In this document: piece by piece, positions 2,100-30,339 of the stretch
How positions within the stretch are numbered: position 1 is the first letter of the stretch
Layout: each line of letters starts with the position of its first letter
Source: Planctomycetaceae bacterium
GTDB lineage: Bacteria; Planctomycetota; Planctomycetia; Pirellulales; Pirellulaceae
Assembly (NCBI GenBank): GCA_024225195.1
Contig: JAAEMV010000331.1
Span: 1-34,098 of the forward strand
Reading direction: 5' to 3'
Length of the DNA: 34,098 nucleotides
Position numbers and translations under genes: made by a program
Notes under the pieces: generated by a model
What the model saw: only the letters and a program-made list of their open reading frames with translations
Database searches by the model: none
What the model was told of the DNA's origin: nothing

Positions 2100-4328
2100 T
2101 TAGAGAACTCTCTGGCTTGCCGGAAAACTGCCGAGGACGGTTAAATTTTTACAGTGAGCACGAGCCTCACCGATGATTTGAGCGATCGCTGAATTAGTGC
2201 GGTGCCCCTCGATGTCAATAAAAAACGTGTAATCCCAGTTTTCTTCTCGACTGGGCCGTTTTTCCAGATGGGTGAGATTGATTGAGTTTCGTTTGAAAAC
2301 TTCCAGCACATCCATCAAAGCCCCCGATCGATCAGTGGTGGTAAACATGATGGAAGTTTTATCGTTACCTGAGATTAGGGTTTTGCTCTTCGATAAAATC
2401 AAAAATCGAGTCATGTTACTTTGTCGATCTTCGATGGCTTCAAAAAGTGGCCGAAGACCGTAAATCTCGCCGGCCAAGGAAGAACCAATCGCTGCGACTC
2501 CACAGTCAGGATCGTTATCTATTTCAGCTTTTGCTTTCATGGTTGCCAACGCAGTACTCTCGGTTGGTACACGCATGGCCTGTGGATATTGAGTGCTCAG
2601 CCAATTTCGACATTGCTCAAAAACACCTGGTTTCGAGTAAATTTTCTTTACTTGTTCTGGTTTGCAATTGGCAAGAAGACAGAACCGAATTTGAAATTTC
2701 ACTTCACCATAAATATTTAATTGATCGTGAAGGTCGATGAATGAGTCGAGTGTTTCATTGATACCTCCCACGGAACTGTTCTCGACAGGAACGAGTCCGT
2801 AATCGATCTCTCCGTTTACTACTTGTTGAAAGACGGTACGAATCTCACGTGCGGGAATAAAATTCACGCTTGATCCAAAATGCCGCACAGCAGCTAGGTG
2901 TGAAAATTCTCCTTCGGGTCCTAAGAAACCGATGCTTAGAGGTTTCTCAATTGCAAAACTGCCGCTCATCAATTCGCGATAGATTGATTCAAATGTTTTG
3001 TCGGTTAACGGACCGCTGTTCAGAGATTTTATCTTGTTGAGGACAGCGTGTTCGCGGTGAGGTGCATAAATTGGAACATCAGATTTTCTTTTGAAATCGC
3101 CGACTTTCACAACCAAATTAGCCCGTTCGTTTACCAGGTCGACGACGCGTTGATCCATCGTCTCAATCGCGGGTTCCAATTCAGTCAGTGAAGAATACTG
3201 GTTGGAAATTATTTCATTTTGATAGCGATAATTTTCGTCATAAATTGGAAAGCTTCCGAGGACATGGAGGCTTTTACAGTAAGCTCGGACTTCACCAAGA
3301 ATTTCCGCAATTTTTTCATCGTTGGCATGTCCAAGAATATCAACGAAAAAAGTGTAGTCACTTCCAACTTCGCGACCAGGTCGTTTTTCAATATGACTTA
3401 GATTGATGTTGTATCGTTTGAAAACTGAGAGAATATCTACCAAGGAACCAGGCCGGTCGGAGCAAGTAAACATCAATGATGCTTTGTCCTTACCAGTAAT
3501 TTCAGTTTCGCGTTTTGATAAAATTAGAAATCGGGTAATGTTGTTGTTGCAATCTTCGATACCGTCAAACAGCGTGTTTAACTCATAGAGTTCCCCGGCT
3601 TTGCTCGATCCGACAGCCACGACTCCATCCGATGGATTGGCGAGGTAGGCGATTTCAGCCGCACTGGCGGTACTCTGGGCGGGGATTTGCTGGGCGTTAG
3701 GATATTTTTGAGATAGCCACTGTCGGCACTGCGCCAGCGCTTCCCCTTTTGAGTAAATTACTTTGACGTTGTCAGGGTCACATTTACCTAAAAGAGAAAA
3801 TTGAATCGCTAATCGAATTTCTCCGTAAATTGTCAATCGGCCATGGTAATCAGAAAACGAATCGAGGGTTTCGATGATTGCACCGCCGGTGCTGTTTTCA
3901 ATCGGAACCAGTCCATAATCGACATGCCCTCGAGCCACTTCTTCAAATACACCTTCGAGTGCTCTTAGGTTTTCATAATCGACTGTGGGTCCAAAAAATT
4001 TGGAGGCCGCAAGATGGCTGAACGTACCCTGAGGTCCAAGGTAACCAACTCTTGTTGGCCGTCCTAAGACAAAGGCGCCGTTGAGAATTTCTCGATAAGC
4101 CCCTTCGAGCGCCGAATTGGGGATTGGACCCTCATTTTTGGAAACTACATTTCGGACCGCTTGAACTTCAGAATGCTGATCAATTCCACGGGCACCTGTT
4201 TGAGCTCGATGGATTCGGGCTCGTTCAACTGCCAGTTTTGATCGATCGTTGATCGCCTGAACCAGTCGCTGATCAACTTCGTCGATAGCGGTTCGCAACT
4301 GTAGTAGTGTTTTATCGGTCGCAGACAT
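2100..4328 (-). CDS. pheA: Tandemly duplicated P-protein: (chorismate mutase-prephenate dehydratase-ACT) x 2 in one polypeptide
   Basis: Copy 1 (aa ~1-372) has an AroQ-like helix region 'LLQLRTAIDEVDQRLVQAINDR', PDT 'GYLGPQGTFSHLAA', 'VPIENSTGGAI', 'NNITRFLIL', and ACT 'RPGSLVDIL...IEKRPGRE'. Copy 2 (aa ~378-742) repeats it: 'LTELEPAIETMDQRVVDLVNERANLVVKVGDFKRKSDVPIYAPHREHAVL', 'GFLGPEGEFSHLAA', 'VPVENSSVGGI', 'SNMTRFLIL', 'RSGALMDVL...LEKRPSREENWDY'. Confidence 0.92.
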   Translation of the reverse strand: MSATDKTLLQLRTAIDEVDQRLVQAINDRSKLAVERARIHRAQTGARGIDQHSEVQAVRNVVSKNEGPIPNSALEGAYREILNGAFVLGRPTRVGYLGPQGTFSHLAASKFFGPTVDYENLRALEGVFEEVARGHVDYGLVPIENSTGGAIIETLDSFSDYHGRLTIYGEIRLAIQFSLLGKCDPDNVKVIYSKGEALAQCRQWLSQKYPNAQQIPAQSTASAAEIAYLANPSDGVVAVGSSKAGELYELNTLFDGIEDCNNNITRFLILSKRETEITGKDKASLMFTCSDRPGSLVDILSVFKRYNINLSHIEKRPGREVGSDYTFFVDILGHANDEKIAEILGEVRAYCKSLHVLGSFPIYDENYRYQNEIISNQYSSLTELEPAIETMDQRVVDLVNERANLVVKVGDFKRKSDVPIYAPHREHAVLNKIKSLNSGPLTDKTFESIYRELMSGSFAIEKPLSIGFLGPEGEFSHLAAVRHFGSSVNFIPAREIRTVFQQVVNGEIDYGLVPVENSSVGGINETLDSFIDLHDQLNIYGEVKFQIRFCLLANCKPEQVKKIYSKPGVFEQCRNWLSTQYPQAMRVPTESTALATMKAKAEIDNDPDCGVAAIGSSLAGEIYGLRPLFEAIEDRQSNMTRFLILSKSKTLISGNDKTSIMFTTTDRSGALMDVLEVFKRNSINLTHLEKRPSREENWDYTFFIDIEGHRTNSAIAQIIGEARAHCKNLTVLGSFPASQRVL

Positions 4329-13470: not shown

Positions 13471-14148
13471 ATGAAAAATACAAAAATGATGATATTTGCC
13501 GTCGCGATAACAATGTGCTTGGCAGCAACTGTGATGGCTCAACCTCCGGGTGGTCAGCGTGGTGGCGAGCGAGGGCAACGTGGTGGCGAGCGAGGCGGGC
13601 CTGGCGGCGAGCGTGGCGGACCTGGCGGCCAACGCGGTGGTGGCGATATGGGGCGAATGATGCAGATGATGCCAGTTCTTGCTGCTCTAGATGCTAATAA
13701 GGATGGCGTAATTTCGAAGAGCGAGATCAATAACGCAGCGGCAGCATTGCGGAAACTCGACAAAAACGGTGACGGAGAATTGGATGCGGAAGAGATGCGA
13801 CCTACTCGTCCTGAAGGTGGACGCAGTCGCGGTGGTGCTCCCGAAGGCGGACCTGGCGGTGAGCGAGGCGAGCGTGGTGGTCGTTCTGCTGGATCTGGTG
13901 GCATGATGGAACGAATCATGAGCCAAGATAAGAACAAAGACGGCAAACTGAGTAAAGACGAAGTTGACGAGCGAATGTTGCCGATGTTTGATCGCTTAGA
14001 TGCGAACAGTGACGGTTCCATTGATAAATCGGAAATTGAAGCAGCAGCCGCACGCATGGGTGGTGGTCGTAGCGGTCGCGGTGGACCTGGTGGAAATCAG
14101 GGTGGTGGCCAGCGGCCACAGCGTCCATCGTTCGATGGCGATAACTAA
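13471..14148 (+). CDS. Secreted EF-hand protein with Gly/Arg-rich low-complexity segments
   Basis: Signal peptide 'MKNTKMMIFAVAITMCLAATVMAQ'. Four EF-hand loops: 'DANKDGVISKSE', 'DKNGDGELDAEE', 'DKNKDGKLSKDE', 'DANSDGSIDKSE'. RGGERGGPGG-type repeats. Confidence 0.9.
   Translation: MKNTKMMIFAVAITMCLAATVMAQPPGGQRGGERGQRGGERGGPGGERGGPGGQRGGGDMGRMMQMMPVLAALDANKDGVISKSEINNAAAALRKLDKNGDGELDAEEMRPTRPEGGRSRGGAPEGGPGGERGERGGRSAGSGGMMERIMSQDKNKDGKLSKDEVDERMLPMFDRLDANSDGSIDKSEIEAAAARMGGGRSGRGGPGGNQGGGQRPQRPSFDGDN
13553..13641 (+). repeat. GC-rich low-complexity coding repeat (GGERGxxGG units)
   Basis: Reiterated ggtggcgagcgagg / cctggcggcgagcgtggcgga units encoding (Q)RGGERGGPGG. Confidence 0.75.
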
Positions 14149-14210: not shown

Positions 14211-14339
14211 ATGCGCGCAGTGAAAAGCTAATAATTCGAAGTTATTTATTTCCACATTATTGCATCGGGTTCGCTAGAATAGGTGGTTTCGATAATCGTG
14301 AAATACGCGATCAACTTTTTGCTTGGCTTGGGAGACATT

Positions 14340-16115
14340 ATGTTGCGGGACTCCATTCGTTTATCTATTTATCTTCCATTGTTTGTTTTGTTATTGGTCT
14401 ACTGCAAAACGGACTCAGCCGTTGCAAGACAGGTTGATCGCCGAGTGCCGCTTGAAGAAATTTCAACTGATTTTGAAATGGCAGACGGACCTGCTTGGGA
14501 TGGATACTCACTAGTCATTCCAGATGTAAAAGGCCAAAAGTTATTTCGTTATCTACCTGCGAAGAAACAAATGCAAACACTGATGCCTGAGTCAGGTCGA
14601 ATCAGCGCGAGTTTTTACAATCATGGCCGCTTGTTTTTGTCTGACAATCCGGGCGGAGAAATAGCTTTTCTAGATGGGAAGAAAAAAGCCACGGTTGCAT
14701 CTTTCGACAGCGTAAGGCAGGAAAAAGAAAAGCCCTATCGACCGAACGATCTTGTAGTTGATCAAAACGGAGGAATTTATGTAACGTTCACGCCCCAAAA
14801 CAAGGTTGCGTATATAGATCCTCAGGGGAATGTTTCGATAGCGGTAGATGGCATCGCCACACCCAACGGAATTACGATGTCGCCGGATGAAAAAACGCTC
14901 TATGTGTCTTCTTTCGTTCCGAAAAAAATCTGGGCCTATGATATTGTCACCGCTGGGAAGACCGACCGCGGACGAATGATTGCCTCGATGGACGACGGGC
15001 CGGATCGAGGAGCTGATGGAATGACAATCGATCGTGCCGGAAACATTTATTGCGCTGGACCGACGGATATTTGGATTTGGAATCCAGAGGGGAAATTACT
15101 CGACAAAATTGCGTGTCCGACTAAACCGATTAACTGCACGTTTGGCGATCAGGATATGCAATCGTTGTATATCACCGGGCCGGGGGGATTGTATCGGCAA
15201 CGAATGCTAATCTGCGGGCGATCTCCTGAGCCGAAAGCGATTTCTCTACAACCTCCCGCAAAATTTCCACGCAAAAAAAATATAGCCCAACCACCGACTT
15301 CGGTTCCTGAAAATGTTGTCGCACACCGTAATGTTGTGTTCGCCCAATATGATCAACGAAAAGTACTGATGGATATTTTTGTTCCATCCGATGCGACAGT
15401 GGATGAACCCAAACCGGCTGTGGTTGTTGTTCACGGCGGGGGCTGGCGAAAGGGTGATAAAACCAAGTTCCGAGCACTTGCAATTAAATTGGCTAGTCAC
15501 GGTTACGTAACGGCAGCGATTGAATATCGGCTTGCTGACGAAGCTGCTTTTCCTGCAGCGATGCACGACTGCACTGCGGCCGTTCGGTTTTTGCGTGCCA
15601 ATGCGGCGACCTACCATTTGGACCCGAAAAAAATCGGAGCTGTGGGCGGTTCTGCCGGCGGGCACTTAACCGGATTGATGGCGTCTGGTGGAGGCAATCC
15701 AAAATTGAAAGGTGATGGTGGAAACGCTAAACAATCTTCACGAATACAGGCATCCATTGTGATGGCTGGCCCGCTGGAGATGCTTACCGGATCGGTCGCT
15801 GATCGATCTCGGCAACCGGATTCAGGATCAAATTCGAACGTTTGGCTTCGAAGCACTGTCGATCAAAACCCGGAACTGTATGGACTTGCCGATGCTTGTG
15901 CCCAGATCGATGCGTCGACGTGTCCAATTCTTTTTCTGGTAGGTGAACAGGATAACCCGGCTCGGAATCAACCTGCACGCGATAAGTTAACATCGTTCGG
16001 AATTGAGACAGGCGTAATCACTTATCCGAATGCCAAACATGGATGCTGGAATCGACAGCCCTGGTTTGAGGAAATGGCAAACGAGATGGTTAAATTTTTT
16101 AATAAGCATCTTTAA
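14340..16115 (+). CDS. Fusion of SMP-30/gluconolactonase-like beta-propeller with a C-terminal alpha/beta-hydrolase (esterase/lipase)
   Basis: The ORF extends from 14283, but the ATG at 14340 gives a better signal peptide (MLRDSIRLSIYLPLFVLLLVY). N-half: 'MADGPAWDGYSLVIPDVKGQKLFRY', 'RPNDLVVDQNGGIYVT', 'TPNGITMSPDEKTLYVS', 'GADGMTIDRAGNIYCAG'. C-half: 'VVVVHGGGWRKGDK', nucleophile 'GAVGGSAGGHL', 'LFLVGEQDN', 'YPNAKHGCW'. Confidence 0.88.
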   Translation: MLRDSIRLSIYLPLFVLLLVYCKTDSAVARQVDRRVPLEEISTDFEMADGPAWDGYSLVIPDVKGQKLFRYLPAKKQMQTLMPESGRISASFYNHGRLFLSDNPGGEIAFLDGKKKATVASFDSVRQEKEKPYRPNDLVVDQNGGIYVTFTPQNKVAYIDPQGNVSIAVDGIATPNGITMSPDEKTLYVSSFVPKKIWAYDIVTAGKTDRGRMIASMDDGPDRGADGMTIDRAGNIYCAGPTDIWIWNPEGKLLDKIACPTKPINCTFGDQDMQSLYITGPGGLYRQRMLICGRSPEPKAISLQPPAKFPRKKNIAQPPTSVPENVVAHRNVVFAQYDQRKVLMDIFVPSDATVDEPKPAVVVVHGGGWRKGDKTKFRALAIKLASHGYVTAAIEYRLADEAAFPAAMHDCTAAVRFLRANAATYHLDPKKIGAVGGSAGGHLTGLMASGGGNPKLKGDGGNAKQSSRIQASIVMAGPLEMLTGSVADRSRQPDSGSNSNVWLRSTVDQNPELYGLADACAQIDASTCPILFLVGEQDNPARNQPARDKLTSFGIETGVITYPNAKHGCWNRQPWFEEMANEMVKFFNKHL

Positions 16116-23490: not shown

Positions 23491-25320
23491 ATGAAAAATA
23501 TTTTTGCGATCCTGTTTGTTCTTGTTGCTGGAACAGCGTTGGCAGAGGAACAACCGAATATTCTTTGGCTTACCTGCGAAGACAATAATATTAACTGGGT
23601 TGGGTGCTACGGAAATCCATATGCGGATACGCCTAATATCGATCGCCTGGCTGGCGAAGGGTTCCAGTACATGCATTGTTACGCCAATGCTCCAGTTTGC
23701 GCGCCAATGCGAAGCACTTGGATTACGGGTGTTCACGCACTTTCGATGGGAACTCACCCGATGCGTAGTCGATATCCAATCCCTCACGAAACGATTAAAT
23801 ATTACCCGGACCTTTTAAAGAAGGCAGGCTATTTCGTAGGTAATGCTCGAAAGACAGATTACAACATTGGCGGCCGCAATGATAAAAGTCCCTGGGATAC
23901 CGACAAGGTGGATTGGGAAGTCCTTAAAAATAATCAACCGTTTTTTATGGTGATCAACAGTACCAAATCGCATGAGTCAAAAGCGTTTGGCGATGTGGAT
24001 AATACAACTCATGATCCGAAGGATGTACGGCTTGCTAAATACCATCCAGACATTCCAGAGATCAGAAAAAATTATGCTCATTACCATGATCAGATGAAAA
24101 AGATGGATGCTGATATCGGATCAGCACTGGCGAAACTGGAGAAAAGTGGAATGGCAGACAATACGATTGTTATCCACAATTCAGACCACGGCGGTGTTTT
24201 GGCACGCAGCAAACGATTTCTATTTAATAGTGGAACGCATTGCCCTTTGATTATTAGGATCCCGGAAAAGTATAAGCACTTGCGCCCAGTCGAACCGGGA
24301 AACAAGGTTAATGAAATCGTTAGCTTTGTGGATATGACAAAGACATGGTTGAATATTTGCGGAGCCGAGACGCCAGATTATTTGCAGGGAAAAGTCTTTC
24401 TCGGTCCGGACGCCGAAGCTCGTGAGTACCACGTTAGCTTCCGTGGTCGCATGGACGAACGTTGCGACAATGTCAGGGCTATTCGAGATGGCAAACTCTT
24501 ATACGTTAGGAATTACATGCCCTTCGCACCCTGGGGGCAAAAGCTAAATTACCTTTGGCGAATGAAAGCGACGCAGGCTTGGGATCAATATCACCGCGAA
24601 GGCAAAACCAATGCGGTGACGGGTCGGTTTTTTGGAACCAAACCAATGGAAGAACTCTACGACACTGCCGCGGACCCGGACAATATCAATAATTTGATCG
24701 ATGATCCAAAGTATGCCGGCGATGTAAAACGGTTAAGTAAAGCGTTGGATCAATGGCAGGTTGAGAAATTTGATTCTGGTTTAATACCGGAAAGTGAAGT
24801 TGTAAAACGATCGGAAGATTGTGGAAAAACCATTTATGAAATGGTCCGAGATCCTTCGCTGTATGATCTTCGCGCCTATCAAGCCGCATCGGCGATGGCA
24901 CTGGAAAAGAATCCGAAGAATCTTCCTGTGTTTTATAAAAATCTCAATGCAGATGATTCCGGTGTCCGTTATTGGGCCGTCGTTGGTTGTTTTAATCTGC
25001 AGGGAGATAGCTCTATCGATTTGGAGAAAATCAAAACCTGCTTGAATGATAAATCTCATCACGTTCAAGCAATGGCGGCTTGGATTTTATATCGAGCAGG
25101 GGATCAAGAATCTGCACAAGCGTGTTGGAATCGCTTGCTTGCGGGTAGTTCTTATGCGTCCCTAAAGGTTCTAAATATTATTGACTGGATTGGTGACGGC
25201 GCAGAACCCTATGTGGAAGCCATGAAAAAATGTGAATTTAGTCATCAGGGATACGTACCAAATATGAAAGAAAATCTTGGTGTCGCAGTTTCGAAACCAA
25301 AAAAGAAGCGTGCCCCGTAG
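23491..25320 (+). CDS. Secreted sulfatase (formylglycine-dependent) with C-terminal helical/HEAT-like extension
   Basis: 'EEQPNILWLTCEDNNINWVGCYGNPYADTPNIDRLAGEGFQY', maturation motif CAPMR in 'APVCAPMRSTWITG', 'TIVIHNSDHGGVL'. The C-terminal region 'VRYWAVVGCFNLQG...HHVQAMAAWILYRAGD' looks HEAT-like. Confidence 0.93.
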   Translation: MKNIFAILFVLVAGTALAEEQPNILWLTCEDNNINWVGCYGNPYADTPNIDRLAGEGFQYMHCYANAPVCAPMRSTWITGVHALSMGTHPMRSRYPIPHETIKYYPDLLKKAGYFVGNARKTDYNIGGRNDKSPWDTDKVDWEVLKNNQPFFMVINSTKSHESKAFGDVDNTTHDPKDVRLAKYHPDIPEIRKNYAHYHDQMKKMDADIGSALAKLEKSGMADNTIVIHNSDHGGVLARSKRFLFNSGTHCPLIIRIPEKYKHLRPVEPGNKVNEIVSFVDMTKTWLNICGAETPDYLQGKVFLGPDAEAREYHVSFRGRMDERCDNVRAIRDGKLLYVRNYMPFAPWGQKLNYLWRMKATQAWDQYHREGKTNAVTGRFFGTKPMEELYDTAADPDNINNLIDDPKYAGDVKRLSKALDQWQVEKFDSGLIPESEVVKRSEDCGKTIYEMVRDPSLYDLRAYQAASAMALEKNPKNLPVFYKNLNADDSGVRYWAVVGCFNLQGDSSIDLEKIKTCLNDKSHHVQAMAAWILYRAGDQESAQACWNRLLAGSSYASLKVLNIIDWIGDGAEPYVEAMKKCEFSHQGYVPNMKENLGVAVSKPKKKRAP

Positions 25321-25379
25321 AAACCAGATTCACCTATTGAAATTTCTTGACTTCGTTTTCACGCCTGCTGTATTTCAAT

Positions 25380-26807
25380 ATGAAAAAAACACTTGCTCTG
25401 CTGTGTCTATTGTTTGTGCTGCCGTTAAGTGCGGAGGCGGTCGAACGTCCTAACATATTGATCATCATGGCGGATGATTGCACATTTTCAGATTTGCCCA
25501 TGTATGGGGGGCGAAATGCAAAAACTCCAAATCTGGAGGCGCTTTCCAAAGAGAGCCTAGTATTTAATCGTGCCTATTTGTCGTCAGCGATGTGCCAACC
25601 ATGTCGTGCAGAGCTCTATACCGGACAATACCCGATGAGGAATGGCTGTGCTTGGAACCATTCGGCAAGTCGGCCGGGCACAAAAAGTATGCCGCATTAT
25701 TTGCGGAAATTAAATTATCGTGTTGGTTTGGCCGGGAAAGTACATGTGCTGCCCAAGAAAGCCTTTCCGTTTGAACCAATTCCGGGATTTGATAAAAATT
25801 GCGTCCGGAATCCAACGTCCGCCCACGATCTAAGCGCGGCAAAAGAGTTCATTTCACGTGATGCGGAACAGCCGTTTTGTCTAGTCGTGGCTTTGGTGGA
25901 ACCGCATGTTCCGTGGGTCATGGGAGATGCTTCGGTTTACCCGCCGAAGGACTTGGAGCTCCCGCCAAACATTGCTGATACCCCGAGAACACGCGAAGAT
26001 TTTGGGAAGTACCTCGCCGAGATTAGTTATATGGATGGTCAGGTAGGCGAGATTCTTAAAGCACTTGAGGAGTCGGGCGAATCAGACAATACGCTGGTTC
26101 TATTCACCTCCGAACAAGGCGCCCAATTCCCCGGTTGCAAATGGACGAACTGGGATACAGGCGTTCATTCTGCATTAATGGCTAGATGGCCAGGGAAAAT
26201 TAAGGGTGGATTGCGTACTGACGCGTTGGTGCAATATGCGGATATCTTACCGACGATTCTAGAACTCTGCGGTGGAAACTGTCAGGGCAAGCCGTTTGAC
26301 GGAACCAGTTTTTCATCAGTTTTAAAACAACCCGATAGTCGTCATCGGGATTTTGTATTCGGGATGCACAACAATGTACCCGAAGGACCAGCCTATCCAA
26401 TTCGTTCGGTCTGCGATGGTGAGTTTCACTATATTCGCAATCTCTCGCCCGCCGAAACCTACATTGAAAAACATCTAATGGGGGTGAAAGGGGAGGGCGT
26501 TCTCAACAATCCATATTGGGGCACCTGGATTTGGGATTCGACAACAAACGAACGAACGTACGGATTGGTGAAGCGTTACATGCATCGTCCTGCGGAGCAA
26601 TTATATCGTTTGACCAGCGATGCCTATGAAATGAGCAACCTTGCACTCGATCAGGAGTATCAGGCAACGCTTGATAAAATGAGCGGGGAACTCGATCGTT
26701 GGATGCAAGCTCAAGGCGATCCCGGGGTTGAGCAAGATACACGAGCAAGTCATCAAGCGGCCAAAAAAGGTCAACATCGTTTCACGCCTCCCTCAGACAT
26801 AAAATAG
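25380..26807 (+). CDS. Secreted sulfatase (formylglycine-dependent)
   Basis: The Met at 25380 begins signal peptide 'MKKTLALLCLLFVLPLSAEA' (ORF from 25347). 'RPNILIIMADDCTFSDLPMYGG', maturation motif CQPCR in 'SSAMCQPCRAELYTGQYP', 'TLVLFTSEQGAQFPGCKWTNWDTGVHSALMARWPG'. Confidence 0.93.
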   Translation: MKKTLALLCLLFVLPLSAEAVERPNILIIMADDCTFSDLPMYGGRNAKTPNLEALSKESLVFNRAYLSSAMCQPCRAELYTGQYPMRNGCAWNHSASRPGTKSMPHYLRKLNYRVGLAGKVHVLPKKAFPFEPIPGFDKNCVRNPTSAHDLSAAKEFISRDAEQPFCLVVALVEPHVPWVMGDASVYPPKDLELPPNIADTPRTREDFGKYLAEISYMDGQVGEILKALEESGESDNTLVLFTSEQGAQFPGCKWTNWDTGVHSALMARWPGKIKGGLRTDALVQYADILPTILELCGGNCQGKPFDGTSFSSVLKQPDSRHRDFVFGMHNNVPEGPAYPIRSVCDGEFHYIRNLSPAETYIEKHLMGVKGEGVLNNPYWGTWIWDSTTNERTYGLVKRYMHRPAEQLYRLTSDAYEMSNLALDQEYQATLDKMSGELDRWMQAQGDPGVEQDTRASHQAAKKGQHRFTPPSDIK

Positions 26808-26871
26808 CGGCTGCCAAATAGGCGCTGAATGAGGTGATGCACCAGTCAATTATAAGTTCTCTGAGGAGCCC

Positions 26872-28389
26872 ATGAAAATCACACTTTCATCTGTATTGTT
26901 GGCAGTTTATCTGTCTTTCGGGGGTGCTCTTCTGGAACGAGCTGTCGCACAGGAGGCAAGTTCACAGTACAACGTCTTGTTCATCATTTCAGATGATCTG
27001 ACCTCGACAGCCCTTTCTTGTTATGGAAATCCTCGGTGTCAAACACCCAACATTGATGCGCTTGCTGCTCGCGGAACGCGCTTCACGCGGGCTTATTGCC
27101 AGGGGACATACTGTGGTCCCTCACGGGCTTCATTTATGTCGGGTTACTATCCACATGCAACAGGCGTTCTTGGTTATGACAGCCCGCGGCCTAAAATCGG
27201 TGATCGGGCAACGTGGCCGCAGCATTTTAAAAATAACGGATATTACACTGCGCGGGTTAGCAAGCTTTTTCATATGGGAGTTCCCGGCGGCATCGAGGTT
27301 GGTTTTGGTATCAAGGATCACTTGGGATCAGATGGTTCCGATGATCCGGCATCCTGGACCGAGCGATTCAATTGTCCAGGACCGGAGTGGAAGGCTCCTG
27401 GCGACATTGAACTGCTCGAGGGCAATCCGGATGGCAACAAGGCACCTGAAGGTGGTAATAATTTTATTGTTGTTGAGGCCGATGGAGGAGATGAAGTTCA
27501 CTCGGATGGGCTTGCGGCAAAGAAGGCAGTTGAGCTTATTGAGGCTCACAAAGATGAGCCGTTTTGGCTAGGGGTCGGGTTTGTTCGCCCTCATGTTCCG
27601 TTTGTCGCTCCGCGAAGTTATTTCCCGCCCTTTCTCCCGTATTCGAATATCGAATTGCCAGAAAAAATTGTTGGAGATCGCGATGACACCCCTCGCGCGG
27701 GAGTCAACTACAAGACCAGCGAAAATATGAAAATGGATATTCGTCGGCAAAAGAAAGCGGTAGGCGGATATCTCGCGTCCGTGGCCTTTATGGATGCTCA
27801 GGTTGGAAAAGTGATGGATGCACTCGACCGCGCTGGATTGCGAGAAAAGACAATTGTGATTTTTACAAGTGACCACGGGTACCATCTTGGCGAACATGAT
27901 TTTTGGGCCAAAGTTAGTCTTCGTGAAGAATCGGCGGCAGTCCCTCTGATCATTTGTGTGCCTAATCAAGCGCCGGGAGTTTGTAACAGTCTCGTCGAAC
28001 TTTTAGATCTTTATCCGACGGTTGCTGATCTTTGCGGACTCAAGGTTCCGCAACGGCTGCAAGGTAAAAATATTAAATCGATGTTGAGCAATCCGGAAGC
28101 AACGGTGCGAGAATCTGCTTTTAGCGTGGCGCCCATGCGTAAAGGGTTTTTACTTCGTGAAAATAAATGGGCCTATATCCAATACGGGGAAGATGCAGCC
28201 AACGGAATCGAGTTGTACGACATGGATTCAGATCCCAAGCAATATAATAATTTGGCAGGAGATCCGGCTCACACTGAGTTGATTAATGGCTTTAAAGCAA
28301 AGATGAAATTAAAAATGACTCAGATTAGAACCAACGATTTACCAACTTTAAAAAAACAGAAGAAGCGAAAAAAACAATCTAAACCGTAG
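26872..28389 (+). CDS. Secreted sulfatase, iduronate-2-sulfatase-like
   Basis: 'YNVLFIISDDLTSTALSCYGNPRCQTPNIDALAARGTRFTRAYCQGTYCGPSRASFMSG' (CGPSR), 'FWLGVGFVRPHVPFVAPRSYF', 'TIVIFTSDHGYHLGEHDFWAKVSLREESAAVPLII'. Confidence 0.93.
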   Translation: MKITLSSVLLAVYLSFGGALLERAVAQEASSQYNVLFIISDDLTSTALSCYGNPRCQTPNIDALAARGTRFTRAYCQGTYCGPSRASFMSGYYPHATGVLGYDSPRPKIGDRATWPQHFKNNGYYTARVSKLFHMGVPGGIEVGFGIKDHLGSDGSDDPASWTERFNCPGPEWKAPGDIELLEGNPDGNKAPEGGNNFIVVEADGGDEVHSDGLAAKKAVELIEAHKDEPFWLGVGFVRPHVPFVAPRSYFPPFLPYSNIELPEKIVGDRDDTPRAGVNYKTSENMKMDIRRQKKAVGGYLASVAFMDAQVGKVMDALDRAGLREKTIVIFTSDHGYHLGEHDFWAKVSLREESAAVPLIICVPNQAPGVCNSLVELLDLYPTVADLCGLKVPQRLQGKNIKSMLSNPEATVRESAFSVAPMRKGFLLRENKWAYIQYGEDAANGIELYDMDSDPKQYNNLAGDPAHTELINGFKAKMKLKMTQIRTNDLPTLKKQKKRKKQSKP

Positions 28390-28446
28390 CTTTTCTTTCG
28401 ATCCTTTAACGACTGCGGTGCAATCAAAATTTGCAAAAGAGGAACC

Positions 28447-30339
28447 ATGAGAATTTTACTTGTTTTGGTTAGCCTGTTTTTGTCCAGCTGGACTTCGGAA
28501 ATTTTGTGGGGTGAAGAGCCGCCCAATGTGGTTGTGTTTCTTACTGACGATCAAGGGTGGGGAGATTTGGGATGTTATGGGCATCCCAGAATTCAAAGCC
28601 CGCATTTGGACCAGTTTGCGGCTGAAGGCTTACGATTAACGCAGTGCTACGCTGGTTGCAGCGTATGTTCTCCTTCTCGGTCTGCTATTTTGACGGGTCG
28701 GACGCCCTATCGGAACGGCGTTTGGCGATGGATACCCCCGGGAAGTCAGTACCATCTTCGAACGAGTGAAATTACGATTGCGGAGCTATTGAAAGAACGT
28801 GGTTACGATACCTGCCACGTTGGGAAATGGCATCTAAACGGAAAATTCAACAGTGACGAGCAACCTCAGCCGAATGATCACGGATATGACCATTGGATGG
28901 CAACGCAGAATAATGCGGTACCTAACCACATGAACCCGGAGAATTTTGTTCGTAATGGAAATTCGATTGGCAAAGCGACCGGACCGAGTTCCATGATTTG
29001 TGTGGAGGAAGCAATCGATTGGCTTGAGTCTCGAGAAAATTCTAGCCGCCCCTTTTTCTTAACTGTCTGGACTCACGAGCCTCATTTGCCAATCGAATCG
29101 GCTGAAAAATACATGCAGGCTTACGCTGATATCGAAGACGAAGGTATTCGGCAGCATCACGGCAACATAACTCAACTCGACGATGCGTTTGGTACTTTAA
29201 TGGCGGGCTTGGATCGCCTTGAGCACCGAAAAGACACGCTCGTAATTTACACTTCCGACAATGGACCCGAGGGAAAAGGGACGTCGGGGAGAACGCGAGG
29301 ATCCACAGGAGGGTTACGGGGCAGGAAGCGAGCGTCACACGAAGGAGGAATTCGGGTGCCAGGAATTATTCGCTGGCCAGGACACGTGAAGGCAGGTTCA
29401 CAAAGTGATACGCCAGTGATCGGCTCAGATATTTTCTCCACGATTTGCGACATCGTGAACATACCTTTGCCTCAAGATCGAACGATCGATGGGGCGAGTA
29501 TATTGCCGGTTTTTGACAATCAACCGATCCAGCGAGAGCAACCACTCTATTGGCGAAACCATTTGGCTCCAGAGAACTCACGTGTAGCGATGCGAGTTGA
29601 TGATTGGAAGATATTAGCATCTGAGAATTTGACTAAGTTTGAGTTGTACAACATTCAAGAGGATTGGCAGGAAACAGACGACCTGCGATTGAAACACCCT
29701 GTCAAATTTGAGGTGCTCAAAAAGCAACTAATTCAAATGGATGCGGCGGTATTAGCCGAAGGTCCGGACTGGTGGAAAGAAGATAAATCCCGGTCTCGAA
29801 AAACAACCAAGACTGTTAACCCACCCCCTGGCACCGACAGCACGGGTCACTTTCAACAAGTCAATGGCGTCAGTGTGGCTGCGTGCGATTTGGGCTATCG
29901 ATTGAAAGCAACCGGTGAGGGCCTCGCGTTGCGAAAGCTCGACTCTCCCATTGTCGGGCGGGCGGTATTGAGCACAACGTATCGCAGCAACCAAAAAAAG
30001 GGGAAGATCCGAAATGCAGCGATCGTTTTTGGAACCGATTCTAGTAATCAGCAGACATTAAAAATTGGCACGGCCATTGGAATGAATCAACATGTGGCGT
30101 TTAGCGGCGGCTGGCAAAATGTTGGTGAGCTTGCCAAAGTTAACGCTGATTTTGAGCCGCTTGATACATTTCAGATCCAGGTTGAATTTGATTTAGATCG
30201 TCATTTGGCTATTACCAAGATCAATGGCAAAACGATGGAGGTAGCCTTGCCCGCGGCTTGGAAAGAAATTTCCTGGATAGGGTTTTACGTGAAAGCGACG
30301 GAATCAGATTTCGCCGATTTCAAAATTGAATTGGAATGA
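28447..30339 (+). CDS. Secreted sulfatase with ~170-aa C-terminal extension
   Basis: 'PPNVVVFLTDDQGWGDLGCYGHPRIQSPHLDQFAAEGLRLTQCYAGCSVCSPSRSAILTGRTPYRNG' (CSPSR), 'GYDTCHVGKWHL', 'TLVIYTSDNGPEG'. The C-terminal ~170 aa look like a separate beta-rich domain. Confidence 0.94.
   Translation: MRILLVLVSLFLSSWTSEILWGEEPPNVVVFLTDDQGWGDLGCYGHPRIQSPHLDQFAAEGLRLTQCYAGCSVCSPSRSAILTGRTPYRNGVWRWIPPGSQYHLRTSEITIAELLKERGYDTCHVGKWHLNGKFNSDEQPQPNDHGYDHWMATQNNAVPNHMNPENFVRNGNSIGKATGPSSMICVEEAIDWLESRENSSRPFFLTVWTHEPHLPIESAEKYMQAYADIEDEGIRQHHGNITQLDDAFGTLMAGLDRLEHRKDTLVIYTSDNGPEGKGTSGRTRGSTGGLRGRKRASHEGGIRVPGIIRWPGHVKAGSQSDTPVIGSDIFSTICDIVNIPLPQDRTIDGASILPVFDNQPIQREQPLYWRNHLAPENSRVAMRVDDWKILASENLTKFELYNIQEDWQETDDLRLKHPVKFEVLKKQLIQMDAAVLAEGPDWWKEDKSRSRKTTKTVNPPPGTDSTGHFQQVNGVSVAACDLGYRLKATGEGLALRKLDSPIVGRAVLSTTYRSNQKKGKIRNAAIVFGTDSSNQQTLKIGTAIGMNQHVAFSGGWQNVGELAKVNADFEPLDTFQIQVEFDLDRHLAITKINGKTMEVALPAAWKEISWIGFYVKATESDFADFKIELE

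Follow-up and report, generated by a model that had tools for sequence, protein, structure and literature searches.

The window analysed here, a stretch of DNA of 34,098 nucleotides, carries a pheA gene whose 742-aa product contains two complete units of chorismate mutase (CM), prephenate dehydratase (PDT) and ACT domains in a single chain, and the two CM halves of this double PheA have lost complementary parts of the catalytic pocket. An AroQ-alpha pocket requires Arg28, Lys39, Arg51, Glu52 and Gln/Glu88 (E. coli PheA numbering) in cis, together with Arg11 donated by a partner of identical sequence. Neither half has all the residues of this set; both halves together do. The explanation that we consider the most probable is a history of duplication and fusion leading to one composite site, in which the pocket of the second CM domain (CM2) would be completed by Arg12 of the first (CM1). 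The sequence itself, the phylogenetic distribution, the residue pattern, the purifying selection and the failure to find another CM in 28 genomes of the genus are directly documented; the geometry of the pairing and the activity are inferred.

The gene (2100..4328), like all of its features given below, lies on the minus strand and is read from 4328 to 2100 as one uninterrupted frame. The sequence-only reading, which gave these coordinates without a strand, had described the product as two full CM-PDT-ACT units in one chain, and this held: Pfam and NCBIfam both find CM_2, PDT and ACT twice along the 742 residues, and the order by Pfam is CM1-PDT1-ACT1-CM2-PDT2-ACT2. CM1 (residues 1-92; 4053..4328), an AroQ-type domain with a degenerate pocket that is supported by the alignment and the AF2 model, scores 38.6 bits against CM_2 and is followed by PDT1 (residues 93-280; 3489..4052) and ACT1 (residues 281-362; 3243..3488), the latter with its GSLV and EKRP motifs kept. 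A linker between the copies (residues 363-379; 3192..3242), placed by the alignment and by the lack of any helix before residue 381 in the AF2 model, leads to CM2 (residues 380-464; 2937..3191; 68.9 bits, also supported by the alignment), whose pocket is intact except for Arg11 in E. coli PheA numbering, and then to PDT2 (residues 465-655; 2364..2936) and ACT2 (residues 656-742; 2103..2363), with GALM and EKRP motifs. The presence of CM_2, PDT and ACT in one chain, which is a criterion for a P-protein, is met twice over; the criterion of one CM-PDT-ACT unit per chain (~360-390 aa) is not met, and the NCBIfam model PRK10622 gives the protein a score of 356, below its cut-off of 577. The gene is flanked by an ammonium transporter gene on one side and by a convergent glycosyltransferase gene on the other.

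Elsewhere in the window, four sulfatase-like genes stand in a row on the plus strand (23491-30339), the first and last of them recognised by Pfam and the middle two by sequence only. A 610-aa protein (14283-16115) has an SMP-30/gluconolactonase region joined to an alpha/beta hydrolase (BD-FAE) region, and a secreted-looking protein rich in glycine and arginine, with EF-hand motifs, is encoded at 13471-14148.

Both CM halves and a series of single PheA sequences were aligned by MAFFT with the PheA of E. coli MG1655 as the reference. In copy 1 of the window protein, Arg11 is retained as R12 (codon CGA, 4293..4295; the proposed trans donor) and Arg28 as R29 (4242..4244), which persists despite the degeneracy of its own pocket; the Lys39 position is occupied by H40 (4209..4211), that of Arg51 by S53 (4170..4172), that of Ser84 by A85 and that of Gln88 by G89 (4062..4064). 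Copy 2 has E385 (3174..3176) at the Arg11 position and retains R402 (Arg28; 3123..3125), K413 (Lys39; 3090..3092), R425-E426 (Arg51-Glu52; 3051..3056) and S457 (Ser84; 2958..2960), with E461 (2946..2948) at the Gln88 position. All these assignments, first made by hand alignment, were confirmed, with two additions: Glu52 persists in copy 1 of 9/12 doubles (E54 in the window protein), and Glu461 is no sign of degeneration, since Glu is ancestral at this position in the lineage and occurs in every one of the 30 single PheA from the genus and its near relatives.

The same pattern recurs throughout the 12 known doubles. Their copy 1 sequences keep Arg11 and Arg28 in 12/12, Lys39 in only 1/12, Ser84 in 3/12, and Arg51 and Glu/Gln88 in none of the 12, so that Lys is lost in 11 and Arg51 and the ancestral Glu88 in all. 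In copy 2, by contrast, Arg11 is absent from 12/12 (Glu in nine, Gln, Asn or Gly in the others), and Arg28, Lys39, Arg51, Glu52, Ser84 and Glu88 are each present in 12/12. Arg11, Arg28, Lys39, Arg51 and Glu52 are kept in 62/62 different single PheA, 30 from near relatives and 32 from a wider set. The prediction that homologues would show the same complementary losses was thus borne out in 12/12 doubles, as against 62/62 singles that keep these residues. In two species an Arg does occur beside position 11 of copy 2 (R10 in genome G484, R12 in genome G486).

Among the 28 CM columns that are invariant across the 30 near single PheA, Arg11 is the only one present in 12/12 copy 1 and in 0/12 copy 2 sequences, and 11 (E. 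coli positions 29, 35, 36, 39, 47, 49, 51, 55, 81, 82 and 88) show the opposite pattern, with complete or near-complete loss in copy 1 and retention in copy 2. The retained columns are also spatially divided. In five divergent representatives the N-terminal part of helix 1 (E. coli 5-22) has nine invariant columns in copy 1 versus one in copy 2, and the segment formed by the C-terminal part of helix 1, the loop and helix 2 (32-62) has two versus 24. A permutation gives p 0.003 for this split; the figure treats the columns as independent and there was only one duplication event, and hence it is to be taken as a description and not as a strict test. A stronger point is persistence: the CM identity between representatives is ~49% for copy 1, compared with ~70% for copy 2 and single PheA, and despite this the copy 1 Arg11 is unchanged; Leu7, Arg11, Ile14 and Asp18 are all kept in 12/12 copy 1 sequences while the remainder of CM1 diverges. 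As a separate observation, Arg28 is invariant in copy 1 even though the pocket there is degenerate, and Arg at positions 37 and 40 is likewise invariant in copy 1; the Arg28 could be structural or could point to a retained anion-binding role.

Comparisons between close species give uniformly low dN/dS values: 0.032 for the N-terminal half of CM1 helix 1 and 0.086 for the rest of CM1, 0.021 for CM2 outside its N-terminal part and 0.059 for that part, and ~0.02 for each of the PDT and ACT domains. The CM parts that are predicted to be dispensable evolve 2-4x faster, and no domain of the double PheA resembles a pseudogene. AF2 models of the window protein and of its most divergent orthologue (pLDDT 88 and 86, pTM 0.79 and 0.75) have a three-helix fold in both CM1 and CM2 of these two orthologues; in the window protein the CM1 helices span residues 3-44, 51-63 and 71-89. 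Confidence is low around the loop between helices 1 and 2 of CM1, which is what would be predicted for a scaffold with a dead site; in the alignment used for the model, single PheA was placed on copy 2, and copy 1 was modelled from 12 sequences. A fold search of the PDB with the whole chain returned mainly PDT matches and noise.

A motif comparison of the 12 doubles revealed no complementary loss between the two PDT copies, which both keep the main motifs; the first carries E232Q and the second sporadic substitutions. Both PDT copies keep the equivalents of Glu159, Asn160, Ser208, Gln215 and Thr278-Arg-Phe in most species, all of those from E159 to T278 being kept in PDT1 of the window protein and the active-site motifs being mostly kept in its PDT2. 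Barring single substitutions in some species, the P-protein motifs (Glu159, Asn160, Thr278-Arg-Phe) and the GALV/ESRP-type motifs of ACT are present in both copies. The position of E. coli Glu232 is Gln in PDT1 of 12/12 doubles, and Glu is kept there in PDT2 of 11/12; the Ser163 position is Val/Ile in PDT2 and Gly in the single PheA of the lineage. The PDT2 changes are scattered across species, with most of them in G484, the most divergent double, whose PDT2 is without the Gln215, Glu232 and Thr234 equivalents; this might perhaps mark the start of PDT2 decay. By their sequence both PDT and both ACT domains appear to be largely usable, and we infer that the protein probably has a single CM site for its two PDT sites.

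When 243 genomes of the family were searched, 12 from the window's genus, its own among them, proved to carry the double at full length. The 11 further doubles of the Mariniblastus group have 62-99% identity across all 742 residues, and in a second collection several double-bearing records are named Mariniblastus sp. or uncultured Pirellulaceae. Outside the genus no double turned up in samples drawn from the class (398 genomes), the phylum (395) and the order (398). Within the genus, sister species have PheA single, not doubled; as close relatives we found single PheA in 14 other genomes of the genus and 16 of other genera, and these 30 match the copy 2 half best (54-68%). A tree of the PDT-ACT region unites all copy 1 sequences in one clade (support 88) and all copy 2 sequences in another (99). 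The copy 2 clade groups with single PheA from this genus, and the copy 1 clade has a long branch of uncertain placement. The simplest history, and a likely one, is a single duplication and fusion predating the divergence of the 12 species. All 12 doubles trace to this one event and hence represent one origin that has been maintained, not repeated origins.

Conserved synteny did not establish an in-place duplication: the doubles share amt, the glycosyltransferase gene and others, but the single-copy relatives have different neighbours, and the original duplication locus could therefore not be identified. Two long frames at single PheA of other genera were suspected to be fusions, and the one inspected resembled GC-rich read-through. 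With respect to the wider relationships, the PheA of the genus (single or copy 2) has 50-54% identity with some single PheA of out-of-class Planctomycetes (E <1e-118) and is more distant from most other members of its own family (E ~1e-50 to 1e-75), which suggests a horizontal transfer of this PheA type.

The genome from which the window comes (6.4 Mb, 94% complete) has a chorismate synthase (AroC) and contains no other PDT and no other CM_2 match. Across the 28 genomes of the genus, neither an AroH-type CM (PF07736, CM_1) nor a CM_2 outside PheA was found, and a TyrA (PDH_N) without CM is present in 20/28. Since no other CM was detected and both AroC and TyrA are present, the prephenate for Phe and Tyr should come from the double PheA. 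The searched genomes are mostly incomplete (71-97%), and another CM could escape notice in any one of them. G491 (77% complete) and G492 (92% complete) have no CM_2 match at all, probably as a consequence of missing contigs.

In the scheme that we propose, the starting point would be a single PheA (CM-PDT-ACT), its CM working as a dimer, that underwent tandem duplication and fusion in the ancestor of one subclade within the Mariniblastus genus-group. The two CM domains would then pair as a covalent pseudo-homodimer, and a CM2-based pocket (R402, K413, R425, E426, S457 and E461), completed in trans by Arg12 of CM1, would be the sole site of chorismate mutase activity. The mirror pocket, formed by residues of CM1 together with E385 and lacking the equivalents of Lys39, Arg51, Glu88 and Arg11, would be dead. 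After the fusion, selection would have preserved, in copy 1, the N-terminal stretch of helix 1 that donates in trans and, in copy 2, the remaining pocket, and the redundant complementary parts of each CM copy would have decayed. The trans donation has precedent: in the E. coli CM, Arg11 acts from the other monomer (PMC5526877) and Arg11' is termed catalytically important (PMC12329711), and the M. tuberculosis CM uses Arg18' in a like manner (PMC9910054). Given the trans role of Arg11 in AroQ dimers, a single composite site is the best explanation: with R12 from copy 1 and everything else from copy 2, exactly one complete pocket can be built. The earlier suggestion of a covalent pseudo-homodimer with a single composite site is thus supported, as is its premise that the partner donates Arg11, which held for the E. 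coli enzyme. The distance of R12 from the copy 2 pocket, the pairing within the chain and the activity remain inferred, the proximity of R12 to that pocket being deduced from homology and not from any distance in the models.

Several observations weigh against the composite site or remain compatible with other views. The simple model does not require that R29 (Arg28) be kept in the dead pocket, and the Arg beside position 11 in two copy 2 sequences might partly substitute for the missing residue. The latter is also an argument for an alternative that we consider unlikely, in which CM2 suffices on pairing with its counterpart in a second chain, the missing Arg11 is compensated by a neighbouring residue or by the pose of the substrate, and CM1 is a decaying leftover. 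Every other CM2 pocket residue is indeed kept, and the N-terminal part of CM2 helix 1 adjoins the linker and might erode for that reason; however, Arg11 is invariant in all 62 single PheA, and a leftover CM1 would not be expected to hold on to Arg11, Leu7, Ile14 and Asp18 in every double. Less credible still is the possibility that both CM sites are dead and that the protein is only a prephenate dehydratase, with an undetected CM or uptake of Phe/Tyr meeting the cell's needs. In its favour, neither copy has a complete cis pocket set, but the 12 species show no variation in the pocket residues of copy 2, with a dN/dS of ~0.02, the 28 genomes of the genus yielded no CM of the AroH type and no further one of the AroQ type, and AroC, TyrA and both PDT domains are kept.

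Pairing of CM1 with the CM2 of another chain, giving a dimer or higher oligomer with a real but inter-chain composite site, would produce the same residue pattern. The 17-residue linker that follows the PDT-ACT module does not fix which CM2 is reached, and the pTM values of the models concern one chain only; nonetheless, pairing within the chain is, by inference, the simplest account of a tandem fusion, and we regard the inter-chain version as very unlikely. An assembly artefact, or chance degeneration in a single genome, is all but excluded. The window does sit in an assembly of 1063 contigs, but the double gene recurs as one frame, and with this residue pattern, in 11 other genomes, several of them with the same neighbours amt and glycosyltransferase, and for this reason neither artefact nor chance can account for it. 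A bolder reading than the composite site, and one that we think improbable, would see in the double PheA a young bacterial counterpart of the events presumed to have given rise to the yeast-type chorismate mutase: loss of complementary parts after duplication and fusion would have produced an obligate composite site, and the dead mirror pocket would have been repurposed for a binding or regulatory role, as the Arg28 kept in 12/12 and the copy-1-invariant Arg37 might hint.

The double PheA appears to be a natural case of the passage from a homodimer to a single-chain pseudo-dimer with mutually dependent halves. The single-copy gene persists in sister species, the double clade offers several stages of divergence between 99 and 62% identity, and the complementary, irreversible decay of fused homodimers, presumed for the yeast chorismate mutase, becomes directly testable. 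The presumed ratio of CM to PDT sites in a central metabolic enzyme would shift from 1:1 to 1:2. The open-access literature that we searched (subscription journals were not covered) did not describe any tandem PheA whose CM halves complement each other. The claim that the arrangement is undescribed for PheA is qualified by the yeast AroQ-beta and the AroQ-gamma enzymes, which have one site per chain within a helix bundle like that of AroQ; yeast AroQ-beta serves as a conceptual precedent.

Among the closest known systems is the E. coli P-protein PheA, which has CM, PDT and ACT domains in the same order and alignable CM residues, and in which a CM pocket draws its residues from two CM domains, Arg11 being contributed in trans (PMC5526877, PMC10520331). 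Its chains each carry a single unit and its dimers two identical sites; the chain of the double carries two units, and its residues would allow only one site. The M. tuberculosis AroQ-delta CM also has a trans Arg (Arg18') from the other protomer in its active site (PMC9910054), but it is a homodimer with two sites and is activated by DAHP synthase. Yeast Aro7 (AroQ-beta) has a single active site per chain and an AroQ-like all-helical fold. A frequent explanation of its origin is that an AroQ-alpha-like gene was duplicated and fused and that one site was lost. Aro7 is a twelve-helix dimer with separate allosteric interface sites and without PDT or ACT (PMC10520331); in the double PheA two CM domains are still recognisable as separate units of 80-90 aa split by PDT-ACT, so the AroQ-beta criterion of one contiguous CM module with allosteric Tyr/Trp sites fails on contiguity, and unduplicated sister species survive. 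The exported AroQ-gamma CMs (the exported CM of M. tuberculosis and CM-CDT fusions) have one site in a six-helix bundle (PMC10520331), but they are exported, have a rearranged topology and are not tandem P-proteins. An export signal and a rearranged six-helix module, the AroQ-gamma criterion, are lacking in the double PheA, in which there is no room for a signal sequence because the N-terminus begins with CM helix 1 (residue 3 onward). The double gene itself is a derived P-protein, and its functional likeness would, by analogy, be to the AroQ-beta and AroQ-gamma enzymes.
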